Shown one piece after another: positions 2,865 to 14,364 of a stretch of DNA of 44,129 nucleotides. The stretch lies in contig CAMYPM010000013.1 of the NCBI GenBank assembly GCA_947290775.1, positions 1-44,129 on the forward strand. The letters run 5' to 3'. The translations under genes and the position numbers were made by a program. The DNA is from an uncultured Bacteroidales bacterium. GTDB lineage: Bacteria > Bacteroidota > Bacteroidia > Bacteroidales > Porphyromonadaceae. Numbering within the stretch: position 1 is the first letter of the stretch; every line of letters begins with the position of its first letter. Below the pieces are notes generated by a model, which worked only from the letters and a program-made list of their open reading frames with translations, ran no database searches and was not told the DNA's origin.

Positions 2865-3655
2865 ATGATGCAGAAGAGACAACTTAACAGAAGACAATAT
2901 TTCCATGAACTCGCAAAGACAAGCGAGAAATATTTTATTCCCTACGTACAGCAATACAGGCAAGTAAGTAAAGGAATGAATGTGTTAGAGATTGGGTGCG
3001 GGGATGGAGGAAATCTACTACCCTTTTCTCGCATGAACTGTAACGTGGTGGGAATAGACCTATCAGAGGAACGAATAAGGGACGCAAGGGTGTTTTTTGA
3101 AGAGAATAAAGCAAAAGGGCGTTTCATTGCTTCCGATATTTTTCAGATAGAAGAGTTCAAACAGCAGTTCGACATAATCGTATGCCATGATGTTATAGAG
3201 CATATCAACGACAAAGAGAGCTTTTTACGCAAATGTAAACAGCTGTTAAAACATAGGGGGGGGGGATTTTCATTTCTTTTCCTGCGTGGCAGATGCCATT
3301 TGGGGGACATCAGCAAATATGTAGAAGTAGATTCTTATCACATTTGCCTTTTTTCCACCTGCTCCCCACTGCATGGTATAAGGGAATCTTAAGAGCTTGG
3401 AAAGAGGATGAGGAGTGTGTCAGGGAATTGCTGAATATCAGGCAGACCAAATGTCCGATAGAATTGTTTGAACGAACAATAAGAAAAGAAAGGTTTAAAG
3501 CTATTGATCGGACACTCTATTTCATTAACCCTCACTATGAGGTGAAATTCCACTTGCGTCCAAGAAAACTATACACATTGATAGGGAGCATTCCCTATAT
3601 CCGCAATTTCTTCACAACATCGTGTTTCTATTTTTTGGAGTTGTCAGAAGAGTAG
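2865..3655 (+). CDS. Class I SAM-dependent methyltransferase, currently out of frame at a G10 tract (likely phase-variable)
   Basis: The first frame (2865-3392) holds a methyltransferase N-half: LEIGCGDGG at residues 41-49, acidic Asp65 in VGIDLS, and HDVIEHI at 108-114. At ten consecutive G (3256-3265) the frame slips, and the rest of the domain continues in another frame, from about 3266 to 3655 (IFISFPAWQMPFGGHQQI onward). As read, translation ends after 175 residues at 3392 with a non-family tail. A tract of 8 or 11 G restores one frame of 262 or 263 residues. Similar Bacteroidales enzymes act on surface glycans; the substrate here is unknown. The downstream half keeps a conserved, stop-free sequence, so the gene is probably switched off rather than long dead. 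A homopolymer sequencing error is the main alternative. Confidence 0.8.
3256..3265 (+). repeat. Homopolymer G10 tract inside the methyltransferase
   Basis: Ten consecutive G lie exactly where the reading frame breaks. Lengths of 8 or 11 G give the full enzyme. Ten G gives a 175-residue product. Nine or 12 G gives a third frame that stops at a TAG about 20 codons later. The position and modulus are those expected of a slipped-strand switch. Confidence 0.8.
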
Positions 3656-6307: not shown

Positions 6308-7264
6308 TCATTTCTCTGCGGAAGAAGATTCGAGCTGCCTTACTATCTCTCTAAGCCGCTGTATCTCTCCCTTCTTAAAATATGAGAGTTTATGTAGATT
6401 ACTTTTTGACAAAGCATCTTGGCTACTATAGGGCAGCAAAGTACCCAAAATAACAGCATGCAAAAGATGCGGTGTACAGTCACTTATTACTATGGGCTTA
6501 AGACGTTGATATTCTCCGGTAATGAGACGGTTGTAAAGTATTTGGAAAAAGAAATATTCCTTGCTCTTCTCATCATGTAGCCAATAATAAAGCAGCAAAT
6601 CGCTGAGGAGAATCATCATCTCACTTCCTTTTTTTGCCCATAGAATACTACTAAGCATGCGAACCTGGAACTTATCTCTCCAGCAATAATAATAGATAAA
6701 CGCATTCTCCCAAATTCGCTTGTAGGGTTCCCGATCATCCCTTTGATAACAAAAATGGTCGCCCTGCATAAACTCTCTGGGAAAACTTCCCGTCATCAAA
6801 ATCGTGGCATCCAGCCAAATCCCCCCATAGGAAGCTAAGAGCATTACACGTAGCAAGTCGCTAAAAAAAGCTTTCTTCATCAGGCCGCTATCTCGCTTGT
6901 CGAGTATCTCCTTCGGAATAGAGAGATAATCGGCTACATTTTCGTCTGTCAGGCGGATCACTTTGAAGTCACCGGCATACTTGTCAACCGACTCAAAACA
7001 GATCTGCACTACCTCCGGAAGTTTTTCTCTGCTGATACCCTGCCCCCAGTATTGCCAAATTATTTTCTCCGTACCGAGGTCCTGCAGAGGCACATACTGC
7101 CGATGCTCAATTTCGCCAGCTATATATTGGCTAATCACCTTATCCCATGCCTCCCCTACTCTTCGGTGTGAAGCAATGAGTCGGTGATAGGTCAAATTAT
7201 TAATCAATCTAAGGGGATACGTTCCCTTGATACGCTGCTGAAATCTTCTATGTGAAGCACTCAT
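6308..7264 (-). CDS. Capsular polysaccharide-type glycosyltransferase (Caps_synth / GT32-like)
   Basis: The 318-residue protein has the pattern of sugar transferases in the capsular polysaccharide synthesis family (PF05704). EKIIWQYWGQG (about 66-76) forms the first strand, SDLLRVMLLASYGGIWLDATI (about 135-155) is the conserved core, and LDAT stands at the expected DxD-like nucleotide-sugar site. No signal peptide is evident, so it probably acts at the cytosolic face of the membrane. The donor and acceptor cannot be read from sequence. It is transcribed away from the polysaccharide cluster that starts at 7.7 kb and probably serves the same surface glycan. Confidence 0.85.
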   Translation of the reverse strand: MSASHRRFQQRIKGTYPLRLINNLTYHRLIASHRRVGEAWDKVISQYIAGEIEHRQYVPLQDLGTEKIIWQYWGQGISREKLPEVVQICFESVDKYAGDFKVIRLTDENVADYLSIPKEILDKRDSGLMKKAFFSDLLRVMLLASYGGIWLDATILMTGSFPREFMQGDHFCYQRDDREPYKRIWENAFIYYYCWRDKFQVRMLSSILWAKKGSEMMILLSDLLLYYWLHDEKSKEYFFFQILYNRLITGEYQRLKPIVISDCTPHLLHAVILGTLLPYSSQDALSKSNLHKLSYFKKGEIQRLREIVRQLESSSAEK

Positions 7265-7532
7265 AAGTTAGTAACGATATAATCATCTATCTAAGATGCC
7301 CGAAGAGGGTTTTACTCCATGACCCAAATCTTATGTTTATGTGACATCTTCAATCACTCCACTCATGTAGCAAGTGGAACTCGTATTTCTCTCGCAAAGG
7401 TATTACAAAAAGAGCAACTCATCTAAGTTTAAGCCTTAGGTTACGCTCCACTACAGACAACCTCATAGCCGAAGAAGCCTTGCCCATTCCATGTAATTCC
7501 TACCCAAAAGATGATACCCGAGAAATAATATA

Positions 7533-7540
7533 TACCTTTG
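7533..7540 (+). promoter_or_regulatory. Predicted -7 box for the HU-like gene and polysaccharide cluster
   Basis: TACCTTTG matches TAnnTTTG. Transcription would start near 7547, placing the whole 22-bp repeat array inside a leader of about 150 bases. No clear -33 TTG is seen. Confidence 0.55.
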
Positions 7541-7552
7541 TTCTCGGAGAAA

Positions 7553-7618
7553 CCCTATAGGGTTTTCTCAAAAAGGCTATAGGGTTTTTGCCAATACCCT
7601 ATAGGGTTTTAAGAAAAA
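7553..7618 (+). repeat. Three direct repeats with exact 22-bp period; palindromic CCCTATAGGG cores
   Basis: CTATAGGGTTTT occurs at 7555-7566, 7577-7588 and 7599-7610, exactly 22 bases apart. Each 22-bp unit has a 10-nt head (CCCTATAGGG in units 1 and 3, GGCTATAGGG in unit 2), then TTTT, then a variable A-rich end. The first unit is flanked by GAGAAA and TTTTCTC, so it can also form an RNA hairpin. The array sits between the predicted promoter and start codon of the HU-like gene. It could bind a protein as DNA or fold as leader RNA. Confidence 0.8.
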
Positions 7619-7695
7619 GAATAGAACGAAAGAGCTACCTTAGAGTAAGAAGCAATTAAGTAATAAGAGACCTTACAGTAGTGGGGATTATATAA

Positions 7696-8076
7696 ATGAA
7701 CTATAAGATTGTAAAACAGCGCGTTGCCTTCGGTGAGAAAGCAGGAAAAGAACAGTACAGAGTAGTACCTATTACCACCGGGACAAAGTCTTTTCAAGAG
7801 ATTGTGGACGAATTAGTAAGGCGCACTGCCTTCTCCTCAGGAGATATAGTAGGTTTGGTTACGGCACTAAGCGACATTCTATGCGACTATTTACAAGCCG
7901 GGTATGCCGTGCAGTTGGGCGAGATGGGTAACTTCCGTCTCACTTTTGGGAGCAGGGGATTCGATGCACCGCATAATTTCAATGCACAGCGCGATATACA
8001 AAATGTGCGCATCACTTATCTTCCCTCCAAAAGACTCAGAAATTTCAACCTTAATTTCCGGCGTATAGAGGAGTAA
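7696..8076 (+). CDS. HU-like DNA-binding protein (HU-related family)
   Basis: The 126-residue protein matches the Bacteroidales HU-related group (TIGR01201 type), longer than classical HU of about 90 residues. Seen are an N-terminal strand (MNYKIVKQRVAFG), a helical region (SFQEIVDELVRRTAFSSGDIVGLVTALSDILCDYL), the VQLGEMGNFRLTF beta-arm entry and an ENVR-like NVRITYLPSKRL segment. It should bend or coat DNA. It starts a run of polysaccharide genes, 24 bases before the flippase, and its leader carries the 22-bp repeat array. In P. gingivalis an HU gene (PG0121) lies with the K-antigen capsule genes and affects their expression; the parallel is suggestive only. Confidence 0.85.
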   Translation: MNYKIVKQRVAFGEKAGKEQYRVVPITTGTKSFQEIVDELVRRTAFSSGDIVGLVTALSDILCDYLQAGYAVQLGEMGNFRLTFGSRGFDAPHNFNAQRDIQNVRITYLPSKRLRNFNLNFRRIEE

Positions 8077-8100
8077 AACAACCCTCACTCCACACAGAGC

Positions 8101-9390
8101 GTGAAACCACTCCCCCACTTTATCTCAGATAACGTCAATCTACTTAGGCGTCATACCGGCATCTTGGAGAACTTCTTCTCCATGACGCTCGTTTCTTTTC
8201 TCAATTCCGCCTTTTCGCTGATCCTCTATCCCCTACTGATAAGGCGATTAGGAGCTGACAGCTATGGACTTTTTGTTTTTGCCTTCTCATTTGTCAACTA
8301 TTTTCTTGCCCTCGTTGCTTTTGGATTTGATATGGTAGGGGCACGACATGTAGCCATAGCAGACGGGAAGAAAGATCTACAGCTTAAGGAGGAAGTACTC
8401 ACCGCTATTCTGACAATCAAGAGTATCATTGCCATTGGGGCGACTCTACTCTACTTTATCATCATTCTATGCGTGCCCTTTTTACGTACGCATATAGCAC
8501 TATACACAGCACTTGCCTTTTTGATTCCTATCAACGTACTCTCCACTGCATGGTACTTTCAAGCAATCCAAAAGAATCGTGTCAACCTGATCATCCAATT
8601 GCTCTCCAAAGTACTGCTCCTAATCGGTGTCGTCTTATGGGTACAGCAGGAGAGTGACACTGCTGTCTATGCAACTTGCGTATCGGGTACAACACTATTA
8701 GCCATGGTCGGAGCACTCGTGTACATACTTCGCAAGGAACACCTATCTCTTCGGTGGGTATCGCACGCTACCCTACGCAATTATACCCGACAAGCTACGC
8801 CACTTTTTTTCTCCAATATGGTGAATACGGTGAAGATAATGGGCATGAACAACGTAATCGGCATTGTACTTGGCATGTCGGAGCTGGCTGCCTTTGACCT
8901 CGCATATAAGATTATGACGACCGCTAATATCGCCATCCGCTCACTCAACGCAGCAATCTTCCCCAATTTGGTACAAAACTTCTCTATGATGCGGGCCAAA
9001 AAGGTACTGCGAAAAGAGCTGGCCTTAGGCTTTGTCGCCATGATAGCCCTCATGCTTTGCAGCAAATGGATCATATTACTTATTGCCGGAGAAGCGCTTG
9101 TACCTATTGCACAGCCTATCCTCATCATACTCTCCCTACTACTCATGATATGGATGATCACTGGCTTTTTAATTGATTTGGTACTCATTCCCACGGGACG
9201 CTACCGAGTGGTTTTCATCAATCAATTAGTCAGCTTAACCTCGCTTATATTATTGGGCTTTGCGGCTGTTTCCATACACCGTTCTGCAGCCTCTGTAGCC
9301 TTAGCTCTTGTGGCAGCAGGCATTGCTGAGTTGGCATTCCTCATGTTACAGATATTTTTCAAACGGAAACAATATAATCTCCCCAAATGA
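8101..9390 (+). CDS. Polysaccharide (O-antigen/Wzx-type) flippase
   Basis: The 429-residue membrane protein has about twelve hydrophobic segments and the start typical of the RfbX/Wzx branch of the MATE-like flippases (SFLNSAFSLILYPLLIRRLGADSYGLFVFAFSF). It would move lipid-linked glycan repeat units from the inner to the outer face of the cytoplasmic membrane. Translation starts at GTG 8101; an internal ATG at 8182 would remove part of the first segment and is less likely. It follows the HU-like gene by 24 bases and overlaps the next glycosyltransferase by four bases (ATGA), indicating one transcript. No Wzy polymerase is visible nearby. Confidence 0.88.
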   Translation: MKPLPHFISDNVNLLRRHTGILENFFSMTLVSFLNSAFSLILYPLLIRRLGADSYGLFVFAFSFVNYFLALVAFGFDMVGARHVAIADGKKDLQLKEEVLTAILTIKSIIAIGATLLYFIIILCVPFLRTHIALYTALAFLIPINVLSTAWYFQAIQKNRVNLIIQLLSKVLLLIGVVLWVQQESDTAVYATCVSGTTLLAMVGALVYILRKEHLSLRWVSHATLRNYTRQATPLFFSNMVNTVKIMGMNNVIGIVLGMSELAAFDLAYKIMTTANIAIRSLNAAIFPNLVQNFSMMRAKKVLRKELALGFVAMIALMLCSKWIILLIAGEALVPIAQPILIILSLLLMIWMITGFLIDLVLIPTGRYRVVFINQLVSLTSLILLGFAAVSIHRSAASVALALVAAGIAELAFLMLQIFFKRKQYNLPK

Positions 9391-10532
9391 AAAGCACCAC
9401 AAATCCCCTTCTCTCCGTTATAATGCCTGTGTATAACGTATCCGATACGCTGATGAGTAGCGTGCAGAGCGTGCTTCAGCAGCAGGTACCTCTTGAGCTT
9501 CTTCTCATCAATGACGGCAGTTCAGATACATCAGGTATGCTTTGCGACAAGCTGGCAACTCAGTATCCGGAGTGTATCCGTGTATTCCACCAAAGTAACG
9601 CAGGTGTACTCGCTGCCCGTGCTATTGGCCTTAAGCATGCCTCCGGTGACTTTATCGTTCATTGCGATCCGGACGATACTGTACCGGAGGGCGCCTATCT
9701 ACGTATGCTCAATGTAATGGAGCTAAAGGAGGTAGACTGGGTAACTGCTCCCTATCGACGTATTCACAGGGATAGCGGAGAGATACTGCCACAAGATGAT
9801 GAGGCGCAATTGAACGACTATCGTTTGGCTCGTATGGGAGTAGAGGGGTATATCACGCACGAACTCTATTTTGAAGAGCTGCTGAGAGGGTATATCCACT
9901 CCGGCCTTTGGAATAAGATGATGCGCCGCACACTCATCAATGAATCGGTACTGCAAGGGCTATGTGCCATCGGGAGGCAAGACTTTATGGAGGATCGCTA
10001 TATATTAGCTCTCATTCTCTGCTTCAATGCACCCCGCATCTATATGATGAATGATGCTGATCCGGTATATAACTACTACCTCAATGCAGCCTCAATAACG
10101 GAGAATATAAGTTTTGAGCGCTACATAGAAAGCGACAAACTACTTCATATTATTGAACAGCTCGTAACTCCGCACAAGAATAGAGAAGCTGTAAGCGACT
10201 CTATATCTGCAAAGATCCAACAAGCAGCGAGTACTCAGCCTCCCTATAATAATGCCTCAATACGTCTGCAGCAAGCTGCCTTGGCCGGGCGCATACGCAA
10301 CTTTATAGGAGGGGTATTTTCATTCGGAGGCAGACAGATACGACACGATACACGCTTTACTCCAATTAACCTAAAAGCTGTGCTAAGAGCCCCACTGAAA
10401 TGGACTACAAAGACAATGGCTGTAATGGAGCTGTTGGGCATACCCTTTGCTCAGTCAGCAGATCGCTTCTCAAAGACAGTCCTACGTAGGAAGAATAAAA
10501 AAATGAGAAGGAGATGTGATTATGAGCAATAG
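9387..10532 (+). CDS. Family 2 glycosyltransferase
   Basis: The 381-residue protein has a GT-A fold of family GT2: SVIMPVYNVSDTLMSSVQSV (about 10-29), the nucleotide-binding LLINDGSSDTSG (about 39-50), and the metal-binding DPDD at 94-97. Its C-terminal part (about 270-381) is basic and has no recognised domain. It should add a sugar from a nucleotide donor to a lipid-linked glycan on the cytosolic face of the membrane. The start overlaps the stop of the flippase gene (ATGA), so the two are translationally coupled. The specific sugar is not readable. Confidence 0.9.
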   Translation: MKSTTNPLLSVIMPVYNVSDTLMSSVQSVLQQQVPLELLLINDGSSDTSGMLCDKLATQYPECIRVFHQSNAGVLAARAIGLKHASGDFIVHCDPDDTVPEGAYLRMLNVMELKEVDWVTAPYRRIHRDSGEILPQDDEAQLNDYRLARMGVEGYITHELYFEELLRGYIHSGLWNKMMRRTLINESVLQGLCAIGRQDFMEDRYILALILCFNAPRIYMMNDADPVYNYYLNAASITENISFERYIESDKLLHIIEQLVTPHKNREAVSDSISAKIQQAASTQPPYNNASIRLQQAALAGRIRNFIGGVFSFGGRQIRHDTRFTPINLKAVLRAPLKWTTKTMAVMELLGIPFAQSADRFSKTVLRRKNKKMRRRCDYEQ

Positions 10533-10580
10533 TTATCTACTTCATTACAAATCCGTCTTGCCCATTCTATAGATAATAAA

Positions 10581-10588
10581 TACCTTTG
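10581..10588 (+). promoter_or_regulatory. Predicted promoter for the epimerase/dehydrogenase genes
   Basis: TACCTTTG (-7) is preceded by TTG at 10558-10560 with a 20-base gap, the usual Bacteroidetes -33/-7 spacing. The box overlaps the TTG of the longest open frame, arguing that translation starts at the ATG at 10613. Confidence 0.6.
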
Positions 10589-10612
10589 TCACAGTTAAAA
10601 ACAGCACTCAAT

Positions 10613-11593
10613 ATGACCGGACATTCTGGAGAAACAATTCTGATTACCGGCGGCGCCGGTTTCATAGGGTCCAATCTGACGGCATATTTCTTAAACCGTG
10701 GCTACAGGGTACGCTGCTTGGACAACTTTGCTACCGGGAGGCCCCAAAACATAGTGGAATTCCTACCCAACCCCAACTACACATTCATGGGTGGAGATAT
10801 ACGCAATTCAGGCGACTGCAGCAAAGCATGTGAAGGAGTAGATTATGTGCTGCACGAAGCTGCGCTCGGCTCAGTGCCACGCTCTGTAGTAGACCCTGCT
10901 ACTACAAATGAAGTGAATATATCGGGGTTCGTGAATATACTGATTGCAGCTCGTGATGCAGGCATAAAGCGTTTTGTATTTGCCGCCAGTAGCTCTACCT
11001 ACGGGGATAGCACCCAACTTCCCAAAGAGGAAGAATACATAGGACGTCCACTCAGCCCCTATGCAGTGACCAAATACGTGAATGAGCTATATGCCGATGT
11101 TTTCGCACGCACCTACGGTATAGAGTACATAGGACTACGTTACTTCAATGTATTTGGCCCCAAGCAGGATCCACATGGGGCTTATGCAGCAGTTATACCA
11201 CAATTTGTAAAAAAACTTTTGTCACACGAAGCACCTGTGATTAATGGGGACGGCTCTTTCAGTCGCGATTTTACTTATATAGATAACGTAATACAAATAA
11301 ATGAACTGGCACTTACGACCTCTAATCCCGAAGCTGTGAACCAAATATATAACACTGCCTTTGGCGAGCGTACAACCCTTAACCAATTAGTAGATTATCT
11401 TAAGGAGATCTTAAGCAAGCAGGATCCTAAGATCGCCTCAATAGAACCTCTGTACGGGCCCAATCGTATAGGAGATATCCCCCACTCCCTCGCTTGTATT
11501 GACAAAGCAAAGAAACTACTGGGCTACAATCCACAGTTTTCTGTAAGAAAAGGCTTAGCAGCCTGCTGTGATTGGTATAGAGAGCACCTATAA
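10613..11593 (+). CDS. UDP-N-acetylglucosamine 4-epimerase, WbpP/TviC-like
   Basis: The 326-residue short-chain dehydrogenase/reductase has the NAD loop TGGAGFIG near residue 12, a serine group near 127, and the catalytic pair Tyr150/Lys154 (SPYAVTK). ALGSVPRSVVDP is characteristic of the WbpP/TviC group, which interconverts UDP-GlcNAc and UDP-GalNAc (or their uronic acids). The longest frame begins at a TTG (10586) that lies in a predicted promoter, so the ATG at 10613 is used. The next gene is a WbpO-like dehydrogenase, the usual partner in making UDP-GalNAc uronic acid. Confidence 0.85.
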   Translation: MTGHSGETILITGGAGFIGSNLTAYFLNRGYRVRCLDNFATGRPQNIVEFLPNPNYTFMGGDIRNSGDCSKACEGVDYVLHEAALGSVPRSVVDPATTNEVNISGFVNILIAARDAGIKRFVFAASSSTYGDSTQLPKEEEYIGRPLSPYAVTKYVNELYADVFARTYGIEYIGLRYFNVFGPKQDPHGAYAAVIPQFVKKLLSHEAPVINGDGSFSRDFTYIDNVIQINELALTTSNPEAVNQIYNTAFGERTTLNQLVDYLKEILSKQDPKIASIEPLYGPNRIGDIPHSLACIDKAKKLLGYNPQFSVRKGLAACCDWYREHL

Positions 11594-11652
11594 CCAAAGC
11601 ACATACCCTAATTATTGAATAGTAATACCTCCACCTATTTCGCAAGACAAAC

Positions 11653-12927
11653 ATGAGAGCGCTCAGCGATACCAAAATAGCCGTGATTGGTCTTGGCTAC
11701 GTAGGACTACCCTTAGCCCGCCTCTTTTCAACTAAATACGAGACCATTGGATTCGACATGAACCCGAAGCGTGTTGAAGCGCTTATGGCAGGGCATGATA
11801 CCACACTTGAAGTTTCGGACGACTTGCTGCAATCTGCTCTGGACAACGGATTCCGTTGCACTTCCAACCTTGAAGAGATACGCAACTGCAACTTTTACAT
11901 AGTTGCCGTACCTACACCGGTAGATAAAAACCATACCCCCGACTTGACTCCCTTAATTGGTGCCAGCACCACCATCGGCAAGGTAATTGACCGTGGTGAC
12001 GTGGTAGTGTATGAAAGTACTGTCTATCCCGGGGTGACCGAAGATGAATGCATTCCGGTAGTAGAGCGTATTTCCGGCTTGAAACTAAATAAGGATTTCT
12101 ATGCCGGCTATAGCCCCGAACGCATCAATCCAGGAGATAAACAGCATACTGTTGAGCATATCAAAAAGGTTACTTCAGGCTCTACTCCTTCAGTAGGCAA
12201 GTATGTGGATGCCGTGTACAGCTCTGTAATCACAGCCGGTACCCATCTAGCTCCTTCTATTAAGGTAGCGGAAGCGGCTAAAGTGATCGAGAACTCCCAA
12301 AGGGACATCAATATTGCCTTTGTCAACGAGTTAGCAAAGATATTTAGCCGTATCGGCATTGACACATTAGATGTGCTTGAAGCCGCCGGCACAAAATGGA
12401 ATTTCCTGCCCTTTCGCCCAGGGTTGGTGGGTGGACATTGTATTGGAGTAGATCCCTACTACCTAGCTCAGTGTGCGCAGCGACATGGCTATAACCCCGA
12501 AATCATACTTGCCGGTAGACGTATGAACGATGGAATGGGAGCCTACATAGCGGATCAGGTGATTAAACTGATGCTCAAAAAAGGCATTCAGGTACTTGGA
12601 GCCAATGTACTGATTCTCGGCTTCACCTTCAAAGAGAACTGCCCTGATGTGCGTAACACCAAAGTAATTGACATCGTCAAGACACTTAGCGAGTACAACG
12701 TGAATGTAACCATCCACGACCCATGGGCTGACCCCGAAGTGGCTCGGTGTGAATATGGCGTAGAGGTATACAATGTTCTTCCTCAAGCACAGTACGATGC
12801 GATAGTCCTTGCCGTGGCACACCAAGAGTACGATGCCCTTGACCTCACTCCCCTCAAAGCCACTAATACAGTTGTCTACGACGTTAAGTCCGCACTCCCC
12901 ACCGGCGCCTACGACCAACGGCTGTAA
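11653..12927 (+). CDS. Nucleotide-sugar dehydrogenase, WbpO/TviB-like (UDP-HexNAc 6-dehydrogenase)
   Basis: The 424-residue enzyme has the NAD motif GLGYVGLPLA near residue 13, YESTVYPGVTEDEC in the central part, KWNFLPFRPGLVGGHCIGVD containing catalytic Cys263, and the C-terminal NAD/UDP-sugar domain. The GGHCIGVDPYYL signature and the ESTVYPG motif separate the UDP-HexNAc dehydrogenases (WbpO, TviB, WecC) from UDP-glucose dehydrogenase. It would oxidise UDP-GalNAc or UDP-GlcNAc to the uronic acid, using the product of the adjacent epimerase. It lies 59 bases downstream of that gene. Confidence 0.88.
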   Translation: MRALSDTKIAVIGLGYVGLPLARLFSTKYETIGFDMNPKRVEALMAGHDTTLEVSDDLLQSALDNGFRCTSNLEEIRNCNFYIVAVPTPVDKNHTPDLTPLIGASTTIGKVIDRGDVVVYESTVYPGVTEDECIPVVERISGLKLNKDFYAGYSPERINPGDKQHTVEHIKKVTSGSTPSVGKYVDAVYSSVITAGTHLAPSIKVAEAAKVIENSQRDINIAFVNELAKIFSRIGIDTLDVLEAAGTKWNFLPFRPGLVGGHCIGVDPYYLAQCAQRHGYNPEIILAGRRMNDGMGAYIADQVIKLMLKKGIQVLGANVLILGFTFKENCPDVRNTKVIDIVKTLSEYNVNVTIHDPWADPEVARCEYGVEVYNVLPQAQYDAIVLAVAHQEYDALDLTPLKATNTVVYDVKSALPTGAYDQRL

Positions 12928-13026
12928 AGGATAGAAGTTTTTCCTTGAGGTCTTGATCCCTTTTAACAATCACATTCTGTGCTGCGGAGTAAACTTTATG
13001 CATGATTCGGCTGTTCATGTCTTGCT

Positions 13027-14364
13027 ATGCGGATAGTAATGGTAGGATGCGGTTACGTAGGTTTGGTTACCGGTGTTTGCTTTGCGGCAATGGGTAATCA
13101 AGTTTGTTGCGTGGATACGGATGCAACAAAGATAGCGCAGTTACAACAAGGGCTATGCCCCATCTACGAACCCGGCTTGGAATCTCTTATCAAAGAAAAT
13201 AGAGCTAAGGGTCAGCTAACCTTTACCGACCAGCTACCTCAAGCATTAGAAGGAGCCGAGGTGGTTTTTATTGCAGTAGGCACCCCACAAGGAGAGAATG
13301 GTAACGCAGACTTGCGATATATCCATGCTGCTGCTCGGGGGATTGGTGCTGCTATGCAGGCGCCACTGCTCATTGTAAATAAATCGACTGTTCCACCCGG
13401 CACTGCCGATCAAGTTCGCTCCATCATTCGACAAGAGTTGGACACACGCAAAGTGGATATTCACTTTGACGTTGTATCAAACCCAGAGTTTCTCAAAGAA
13501 GGTGCTGCAGTGAAGGACTTTATGAGTCCGGACCGCATTATCGTAGGTAGCGAAAGCAAGGAGGCATTGGAGGTAATGCGTACCCTATACGCACCCTTTA
13601 CTCTGCTTAATGATCGCTTTATCGCTATGGATACACGTTCGGCGGAAATGACTAAGTACGCAGCAAATGCAATGCTGGCGACCAAGATATCTTTCATGAA
13701 CGAGATCGCCAATATTTGTGAGCGAGTTGGTGCTGACGTACAAAAGGTACGTATAGGCATAGGCTCCGACACGCGTATAGGCTATAGTTTTACTTATCCC
13801 GGAGTGGGGTTTGGTGGCAGCTGCTTTCCAAAGGACATCAGAGCGCTACGGCACACAGCCGAAAGCTTTGGTTATACCCCTCGCATCACTGCTGCCGTTG
13901 AGGCGGTTAACGAATCTCAGAAGCTGCTACTTGCCCAAAAGGTAAAAGCCTGCTACGGAGAGGATCTCTCGGGGAAAATATTTGCCATTTGGGGATTGTC
14001 TTACAAGCCCGAAACGGACGATATGCGTGAAGCTCCCTCCATCGTCATCATTAAAGAGCTTTTACGCTGTGGTGCATCTATCCGTGCCTATGATCCCAAA
14101 GCTATGCCCATAGCTAAGAAGCTTTACTTAAAAGACTATCCCATTCTCTATTGCACCAATAAATACGAGGCATTGCAAGGAACTAATGCACTGCTTCTAC
14201 TTACCGAATGGAAAGAATTTCGTGCTCCGGACTTCTCTGAGATAGCAATGCAGCTATCTGATCACTTGATCTTCGATGGGCGCAATCAATATGATGCAGA
14301 GCATCTCTACTCCTATGGGTTAAGGTGCATACAGATCGGGCGTCCCTCTTTTCCCTCTGCTTAG
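13027..14364 (+). CDS. ugd: UDP-glucose 6-dehydrogenase
   Basis: The 445-residue enzyme shows the N-terminal NAD fold (MVGCGYVGLVTGVCFA), the central VNKSTVPPGTAD and SNPEFLKEGAAVKDFMSPDR segments, catalytic Cys266 in GFGGSCFPKD, and the C-terminal UDP-binding domain (WGLSYKPETDDMREAPS). It converts UDP-glucose to UDP-glucuronate with two NAD+. It follows the WbpO-like gene by 99 bases. With that enzyme the cluster can supply two acidic sugars. In P. gingivalis a UDP-glucose dehydrogenase (UgdA) contributes to A-LPS, the glycan that anchors type IX cargo, so a similar role is possible here. Confidence 0.95.
   Translation: MRIVMVGCGYVGLVTGVCFAAMGNQVCCVDTDATKIAQLQQGLCPIYEPGLESLIKENRAKGQLTFTDQLPQALEGAEVVFIAVGTPQGENGNADLRYIHAAARGIGAAMQAPLLIVNKSTVPPGTADQVRSIIRQELDTRKVDIHFDVVSNPEFLKEGAAVKDFMSPDRIIVGSESKEALEVMRTLYAPFTLLNDRFIAMDTRSAEMTKYAANAMLATKISFMNEIANICERVGADVQKVRIGIGSDTRIGYSFTYPGVGFGGSCFPKDIRALRHTAESFGYTPRITAAVEAVNESQKLLLAQKVKACYGEDLSGKIFAIWGLSYKPETDDMREAPSIVIIKELLRCGASIRAYDPKAMPIAKKLYLKDYPILYCTNKYEALQGTNALLLLTEWKEFRAPDFSEIAMQLSDHLIFDGRNQYDAEHLYSYGLRCIQIGRPSFPSA

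Follow-up and report, generated by a model that had tools for sequence, protein, structure and literature searches.

We found that a class I SAM methyltransferase gene on the forward strand of a 44,129-base window (2868-3655; the window is the whole stretch of DNA that was analysed) changes frame exactly at a run of ten G (3256-3265), and we hold with considerable confidence, on the sequences compared here, that slipped-strand phase variation is the best explanation of the split gene. Slipped-strand mispairing at the G tract of this stand-alone methyltransferase gene would add or remove Gs at replication; one third of the tract lengths would give the full enzyme of 261-262 aa (ON), two thirds would give products of about 132-175 aa (OFF), and the window would represent an OFF cell or clone. 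The features of the locus are as follows.

2832-2839, + strand: candidate promoter element TACCTTCG, one mismatch to the Bacteroidetes -7 element
2865-3392, + strand: open reading frame as it stands (OFF product), 175 aa, final 41 residues out of frame
2868-3251, + strand: methyltransferase N half, 128 codons, the SAM-binding part, with VLEIGCGDGGN and VCHDVIEHI
3252-3255, + strand: variable spacer CATA, immediately 5′ of the tract
3256-3265, + strand: run of ten G that forms the proposed switch; in the intact homologue P0003 its codons correspond to about residues 130-132
3266-3655, + strand: methyltransferase C half, 129 codons plus stop, in a different frame from the N half, conserved and without internal stop

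The first-pass annotation had described ten consecutive G, a break there between gene halves in different forward frames, and a truncated product of 175 residues, all of which we could confirm. The second ATG, at 2868, is the start of the gene in the ten copies compared and gives a short product of 174 aa; frame arithmetic beside nine relatives likewise placed the window copy out of frame. As homopolymer-based translational phase variation would require, the tract lies within coding sequence at the frame break. It is also the longest G/C run in the window, where no other run reaches eight and only a single G7 reaches seven, and a first-order Markov model predicts 0.017 G/C runs of at least ten. 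The upstream open reading frame (2865-3392) matched the Pfam families Methyltransf_31, 25, 12, 11 and 23, with Methyltransf_31 at 5.2e-19, while the downstream open reading frame alone (3293-3655) gave no Pfam match. The C half reads IFISFPAWQMPFGGHQQICRSRF and onward without a stop up to the stop codon at 3653-3655, and in the comparison with intact homologues that the first-pass annotation had proposed, it aligned with the C half of proteins of 261-262 aa, the length of the close homologues P0003, P0013 and P0018.

Most lineages differ in the few bases just 5′ of the tract, with CATA in the window and ACCC, CAA, ATC, AC or ATA in relatives; the codons preceding this spacer, by contrast, are conserved. 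The tract presumably sits where class I methyltransferases have their PGG motif. Upstream of the gene, TACCTTCG resembles the Bacteroidetes -7 element, whose consensus we take to be TAnnTTTG, and four relatives (L001, L113, L002 and L116) carry TACCTTTG or TATCTTTG at about the equivalent place.

Tract length and reading frame among relatives

The best genome locus was L001, from Prevotella vespertina A2879, and the second was L002, from a record titled Porphyromonas uenonis. A block of 7.7 kb is common to L001, L114 and L115 at 99.3-99.8% identity, and within it both halves of the methyltransferase gene are letter-identical in the three loci; the tract is G6 in L001, where the gene is whole, G7 in L114 and G8 in L115, where it is broken. 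We thus observed the tract-length difference between near-identical copies that is expected of phase variation. L001 and L114 differ over the 7.7 kb by 11 mismatches, with the tract as the sole internal indel and a second gap at the edge of the alignment, and L001 and L115 differ by 36 mismatches, with the tract and one other single-base indel. A further locus, L177 (G8, OFF), aligns with L001 over 7.7 kb at 99.8% identity and with two gaps. The gene is whole in L113 (G7, after a different spacer) and L002 (G9) and broken in L116 (G6) and L176 (G9). Altogether, three of the nine tract-bearing copies read as DNA (the window, L001, L002, L113, L114, L115, L116, L176 and L177) are ON and six are OFF, with tracts of 6-10 G as assembled. 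A single fixed length in all relatives, which would have spoken against the switch proposed in the first-pass annotation, was not seen. What counts against a switch is that some relatives have tracts of 6-7 G, short for slippage to be frequent. L003, about 75% identical to P0003, is whole with four G only.

The closest DNA relatives of the window are 76-80% identical, and our genome searches yielded no gene or part of one that exceeds 83% protein identity to P0003 or, across the full gene, 80% DNA identity to the window, although short matches at higher DNA identity do occur. The probable tract variation of the window's own gene therefore rests on the proteins P0002 (OFF) and P0003 (ON), which came from a comparison of 217 proteins (216 database proteins and the window's own product). 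In this comparison we identified four groups with near-identical N halves that then continue in different frames, a second line of support for the claimed switch. In the first group, P0018 is ON while P0014, P0012 and P0005 are OFF, in two frames, with 127-128 of 128 N-half residues identical; in the second, P0013 is ON while P0010 and P0008 are OFF (127-128 of 128); in the third, P0023 is ON while P0020 and P0004 are OFF (125-126 of 128); and in the fourth, P0003 is ON while P0002 and the window are OFF (124-127 of 128). The close protein matches that bear a name are from Prevotella (P0008 and P0014), as is the best genome locus, L001, and the host of the window is therefore probably a Prevotella; plasmid records searched with the first 25,000 bases of the window matched over 56 bases only. 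The source label of P0008 is 'partial'. Six proteins that stop at the tract, possibly at a contig end (P0015, P0016, P0017, P0019, P0030 and P0031), were left out of the evidence. The ratio of ON to OFF proteins was not used, because short queries bias such counts. The OFF cluster P0014 lists 732 contigs versus 6 for the ON protein P0018, an imbalance that could mean that OFF is nearly fixed in that group.

The position of the breaks was followed in two genome surveys, whose loci were counted by hand from listings. Three of the five tract-bearing loci in a survey of 398 genomes are split at residues 124-135. A family survey of 399 genomes, 97 of which match at E <= 1e-20, brought in G781 and G645, which bear the tract and have the gene split at this position as well, and also G635, where the gene is split but is not one of the tract-bearing copies; in both surveys together, five of seven tract-bearing genomes are split at residues 124-135. 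Among 56 other loci of the 398-genome survey (E up to about 1e-20), only part of which were read as DNA, 50 are whole, three are split elsewhere (G229:C110, G320 and G295:C11) and three are partial matches (G159, G012 and G380). When 137 sites were read as DNA, duplicates included, only this lineage had runs of at least six at the tract position; another four six-G runs lie in the FGG codons. Moreover, 80 loci of relatives (1,120,753 bases) hold one G/C run of nine and none longer, and this run is the methyltransferase tract of L002. As far as these sequences go, the breaks track the tract.

Length differences at another homopolymer were also seen in this gene. The broken gene of G320 has T8 at a site where its near relative G234, which is whole, has T7, indicating that a homopolymer indel has hit the methyltransferase gene elsewhere too. 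For L117 and L086, from a more distant lineage, the copy with T7 is whole and the copy with T8 is broken, the T run lying a few dozen bases before the place of the G tract.

Selection on the downstream half and alternative explanations

The best-surviving alternative, though a quite improbable one, is that the gene is a decaying pseudogene that was broken by chance at a long homopolymer. It would fit the OFF state of six of the nine DNA copies, the 732 contigs listed for P0014, and the lack of a close homologue in most genomes, only 97 of 399 genomes of the family having a match at E <= 1e-20. However, all nine tract-bearing copies have a C half free of internal stops, and C-half pN/pS is 0.055-0.169 (bootstrap upper limits 0.102-0.255) in the six pairs that can be formed from four broken copies (the window, L115, L116 and L176), the N half of the same pairs giving 0.109-0.213. 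By the Nei-Gojobori method, C-half dN/dS between the window and L002 comes to 0.083 and between the window and L116 to 0.097; against the other five relatives synonymous change is saturated. Since constraint on the C half is kept where a dead gene at such divergence should have lost it, the broken copies are probably not decaying pseudogenes, in agreement with the earlier view that the downstream half is stop-free, conserved and not long decayed. It also counts against decay that each of four groups with near-identical N halves contains both ON and OFF copies and that all five split genomes of this lineage are split at the same place. In-frame and out-of-frame alleles thus occur together with purifying selection on the whole product, downstream half included, as phase variation would predict.

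There is only a very slim chance that a homopolymer sequencing or assembly error fakes the break. A run of ten G is error-prone on some sequencing platforms, and one other homopolymer differs in the alignment of L001 with L115. In contrast, the OFF frame of the window is also that of P0002, a protein with three listed sources, and L001 and L114 show no other internal homopolymer length difference over 7.7 kb. The relatives, moreover, have differing tracts of 6, 7 and 8 G, and short-read assemblies are usually correct at such lengths.

Just as improbable, and raised by analogy, is C-terminal switching, in which the short forms would have a function of their own; such switching was proposed for late repeats in Helicobacter canadensis (PMC2823697). 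The tract is at mid-gene, and among the tract-bearing relatives that were compared the out-of-frame tails are 37 or 41 residues long; one frame of the window gives 18. Five of the six pairs that do not include the window show less synonymous change in the first 43 codons of the C half, which the tails overlap, than in the rest of it, and pairs with L001 show this most clearly. In all four pairs with the window, however, the overlapped codons show more synonymous change, and these opposite patterns indicate no consistent constraint on the tails; outside the window's lineage, the tails may still have a function. A similar tail length would follow from conservation of the ON frame as well, and the tails replace what are modelled as the remaining core strands of the enzyme. 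Least probable of all is programmed recoding, in which ribosomal frameshifting or RNA polymerase slippage would give both products without DNA switching: homopolymers can be slippery for polymerase and ribosome, which PMC3711429 states for A/T runs, but all three frames occur in relatives, zero shift included, whereas recoding should keep one frame relation.

Slipped-strand phase variation, the reading that we prefer, would further imply that the tract changes reversibly and frequently within one population and that the short products are inactive, both of which we infer.

Enzyme class, genomic context and possible mobility

An AlphaFold model of the intact homologue P0003, built from a 12-row alignment (pLDDT 83.6, pTM 0.82), is that of a predicted class I methyltransferase. 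Its best Foldseek matches are small-molecule methyltransferases, UbiG included, and together with the Pfam matches above cut-off, they assign the family to the class I SAM methyltransferases. The tract codons (about residues 130-132) fall within a strand modelled at 127-137, followed by helices between 143 and 206 and strands at 209-219 and 251-258; as modelled, the OFF products would be without the last core strands and the C-terminal half. The best NCBIfam match of P0003 is UbiG (TIGR01983), with which, as with other small-molecule class I methyltransferases, it has a Rossmann-like SAM domain in common; P0003 reaches 79.7 bits and P0018 68.8 bits, below the cut-off of 102.95, and the residues after about 137 lie outside the match. 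A role in DNA methylation or defence was considered and rejected: no DNA-methyltransferase Pfam family, as a phasevarion would have, is among the matches obtained, and the PADLOC matches (mad2 and a weak MTase_II) are generic ones that cover the shared SAM domain only. By the evidence here, the enzyme is not a DNA methyltransferase; its methyl group may go to a small molecule or a glycan.

The window gene sits between a rhodanese-like gene and relA/spoT. A polysaccharide cluster within 6308-14364, starting about 2.7 kb from the gene, carries Caps_synth, Polysacc_synt, a glycosyltransferase, an epimerase and two nucleotide-sugar dehydrogenases. The neighbours change between relatives: L001 has a Mob_Pre relaxase and an integrase beside the gene and L113 a uridine-kinase-family gene, and none of the ten neighbours scanned in L001, L113 and L002 is a glycan gene by Pfam (four had no matches). 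A conserved place in a glycan gene cluster, as a surface-glycan methyltransferase might be expected to have, was not found among these loci, and because the neighbours change, the glycan target suggested in the first-pass annotation, as its own inference, is left a guess.

A conserved operon was also rejected, 30 of the 74 recognised loci (of 80) having no same-strand neighbour within 80 bp. We scanned 44 of the 52 same-strand neighbours within this distance, leaving out eight apparent near-duplicates, and the commonest were outer-membrane barrel (8/44) and sigma-70 (7/44) genes. Neither kind lies beside the window gene, although in L116 the gene after the tract-bearing copy contains sigma-70. 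Six distant homologues (L041, L044, L050, L061, L062 and L075) have a gene of about 490-555 aa immediately upstream; where this gene was profiled, it has sigma-70 regions and ends in a part resembling an outer-membrane barrel.

Besides two short repeats, L113 and L001 share only 1.26 kb around the gene, at 98.8% identity; this limited match suggests that gene and switch have moved together, laterally and as a small unit. The tract-bearing unit of about 1.26 kb (L001:7756-9017 and L113:9755-11017) lies in different genomic contexts. About 200 conserved bases follow the gene (L001:8787-9017 and the equivalents in L113, L114 and L115), after which the sequences differ, and in L114 this stretch leads into a DDE transposase gene. 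The intact G9 copy at L002:8001-8786 belongs to the record titled Porphyromonas uenonis DSM 23387.

Other G tracts, known switches and meaning

We counted sites with at least nine G in six genomes and obtained 0 in G001, 1 in G312, 2 in G307, 3 each in G295 and G015, and 10 in G002, one of the ten being the methyltransferase tract of G002 itself. The other host genes include one encoding a TonB receptor, hit at its N-terminus, an Acyl_transf_3 gene and, by a look at the sequence alone, a putative glycosyltransferase and a putative second acyltransferase; the open reading frames that host these other sites are open in these genomes. The sites hint at a wider set of G-tract switches. Several of the ten sites in the Porphyromonas uenonis DSM 23387 record (L002) adjoin 'agattagaggtt'-like repeats. 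In L151 and L148, a TonB-dependent receptor gene has G13 and G9, respectively, near its N-terminus and is open in both, a candidate second switch.

Known switching in the Bacteroidales is dominated by DNA inversion. The invertible promoters of this order also give reversible on/off switching, but the mechanism proposed here is homopolymer slippage. Ornithobacterium hominis is a relative in the wider phylum. Its adhesin genes have been described with a putative phase-variation mechanism (PMC13183296). PMC6321876 lists, for example, 'SAM-dependent methyltransferase G (7-10)' in the core phasome of Campylobacter fetus; there too a tract of similar length lies inside a methyltransferase gene and differs between strains, but in another phylum, and the likeness is one of gene type. 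The same paper gives 5-81 phase-variable genes per Campylobacter strain, versus the 0-10 sites of at least nine G in the six genomes here. Phasevarions, which are phase-variable DNA methyltransferases, are similar in that a methyltransferase is switched by slippage at simple repeats (PMC3711429), but here the protein has 261 aa and the adjacent genes are not restriction genes. Our searches of an open-access library for phase variation in Prevotella, Bacteroides, Bacteroidetes and Bacteroidota brought up no paper on a homopolymer case in Prevotella, subscription papers being outside this scope. The type of switch is already known; the gene, the genus and the joint movement of tract and gene are the new part.

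A bolder proposal, which we regard as doubtful, is that Prevotella has a poly-G slippage system beside inversion, whose best-supported member is a mobile methyltransferase cassette of about 1.3 kb that carries its switch, reaches a Porphyromonas-labelled genome and toggles the methylation of an exposed glycan. If such toggling is true, it could explain partly methylated sugars, for example in the T9SS linker of P. intermedia, which, according to PMC11969387, carries a partly O-methylated deoxyhexose; this would be an interesting parallel only. A methylated P. intermedia O-glycan in PMC10897501 was dropped as a further case, since a search of that source for 'methyl' found nothing. Tract length is simple to assay and can be related to cell chemistry. 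If the switch is real, some of the 'partial' or truncated methyltransferase annotations in these bacteria would be OFF alleles and not dead genes, and if G-tract switching is common to several Prevotella genomes, these bacteria, which are abundant in the mouth and gut, would have slippage as a second way to vary fast.
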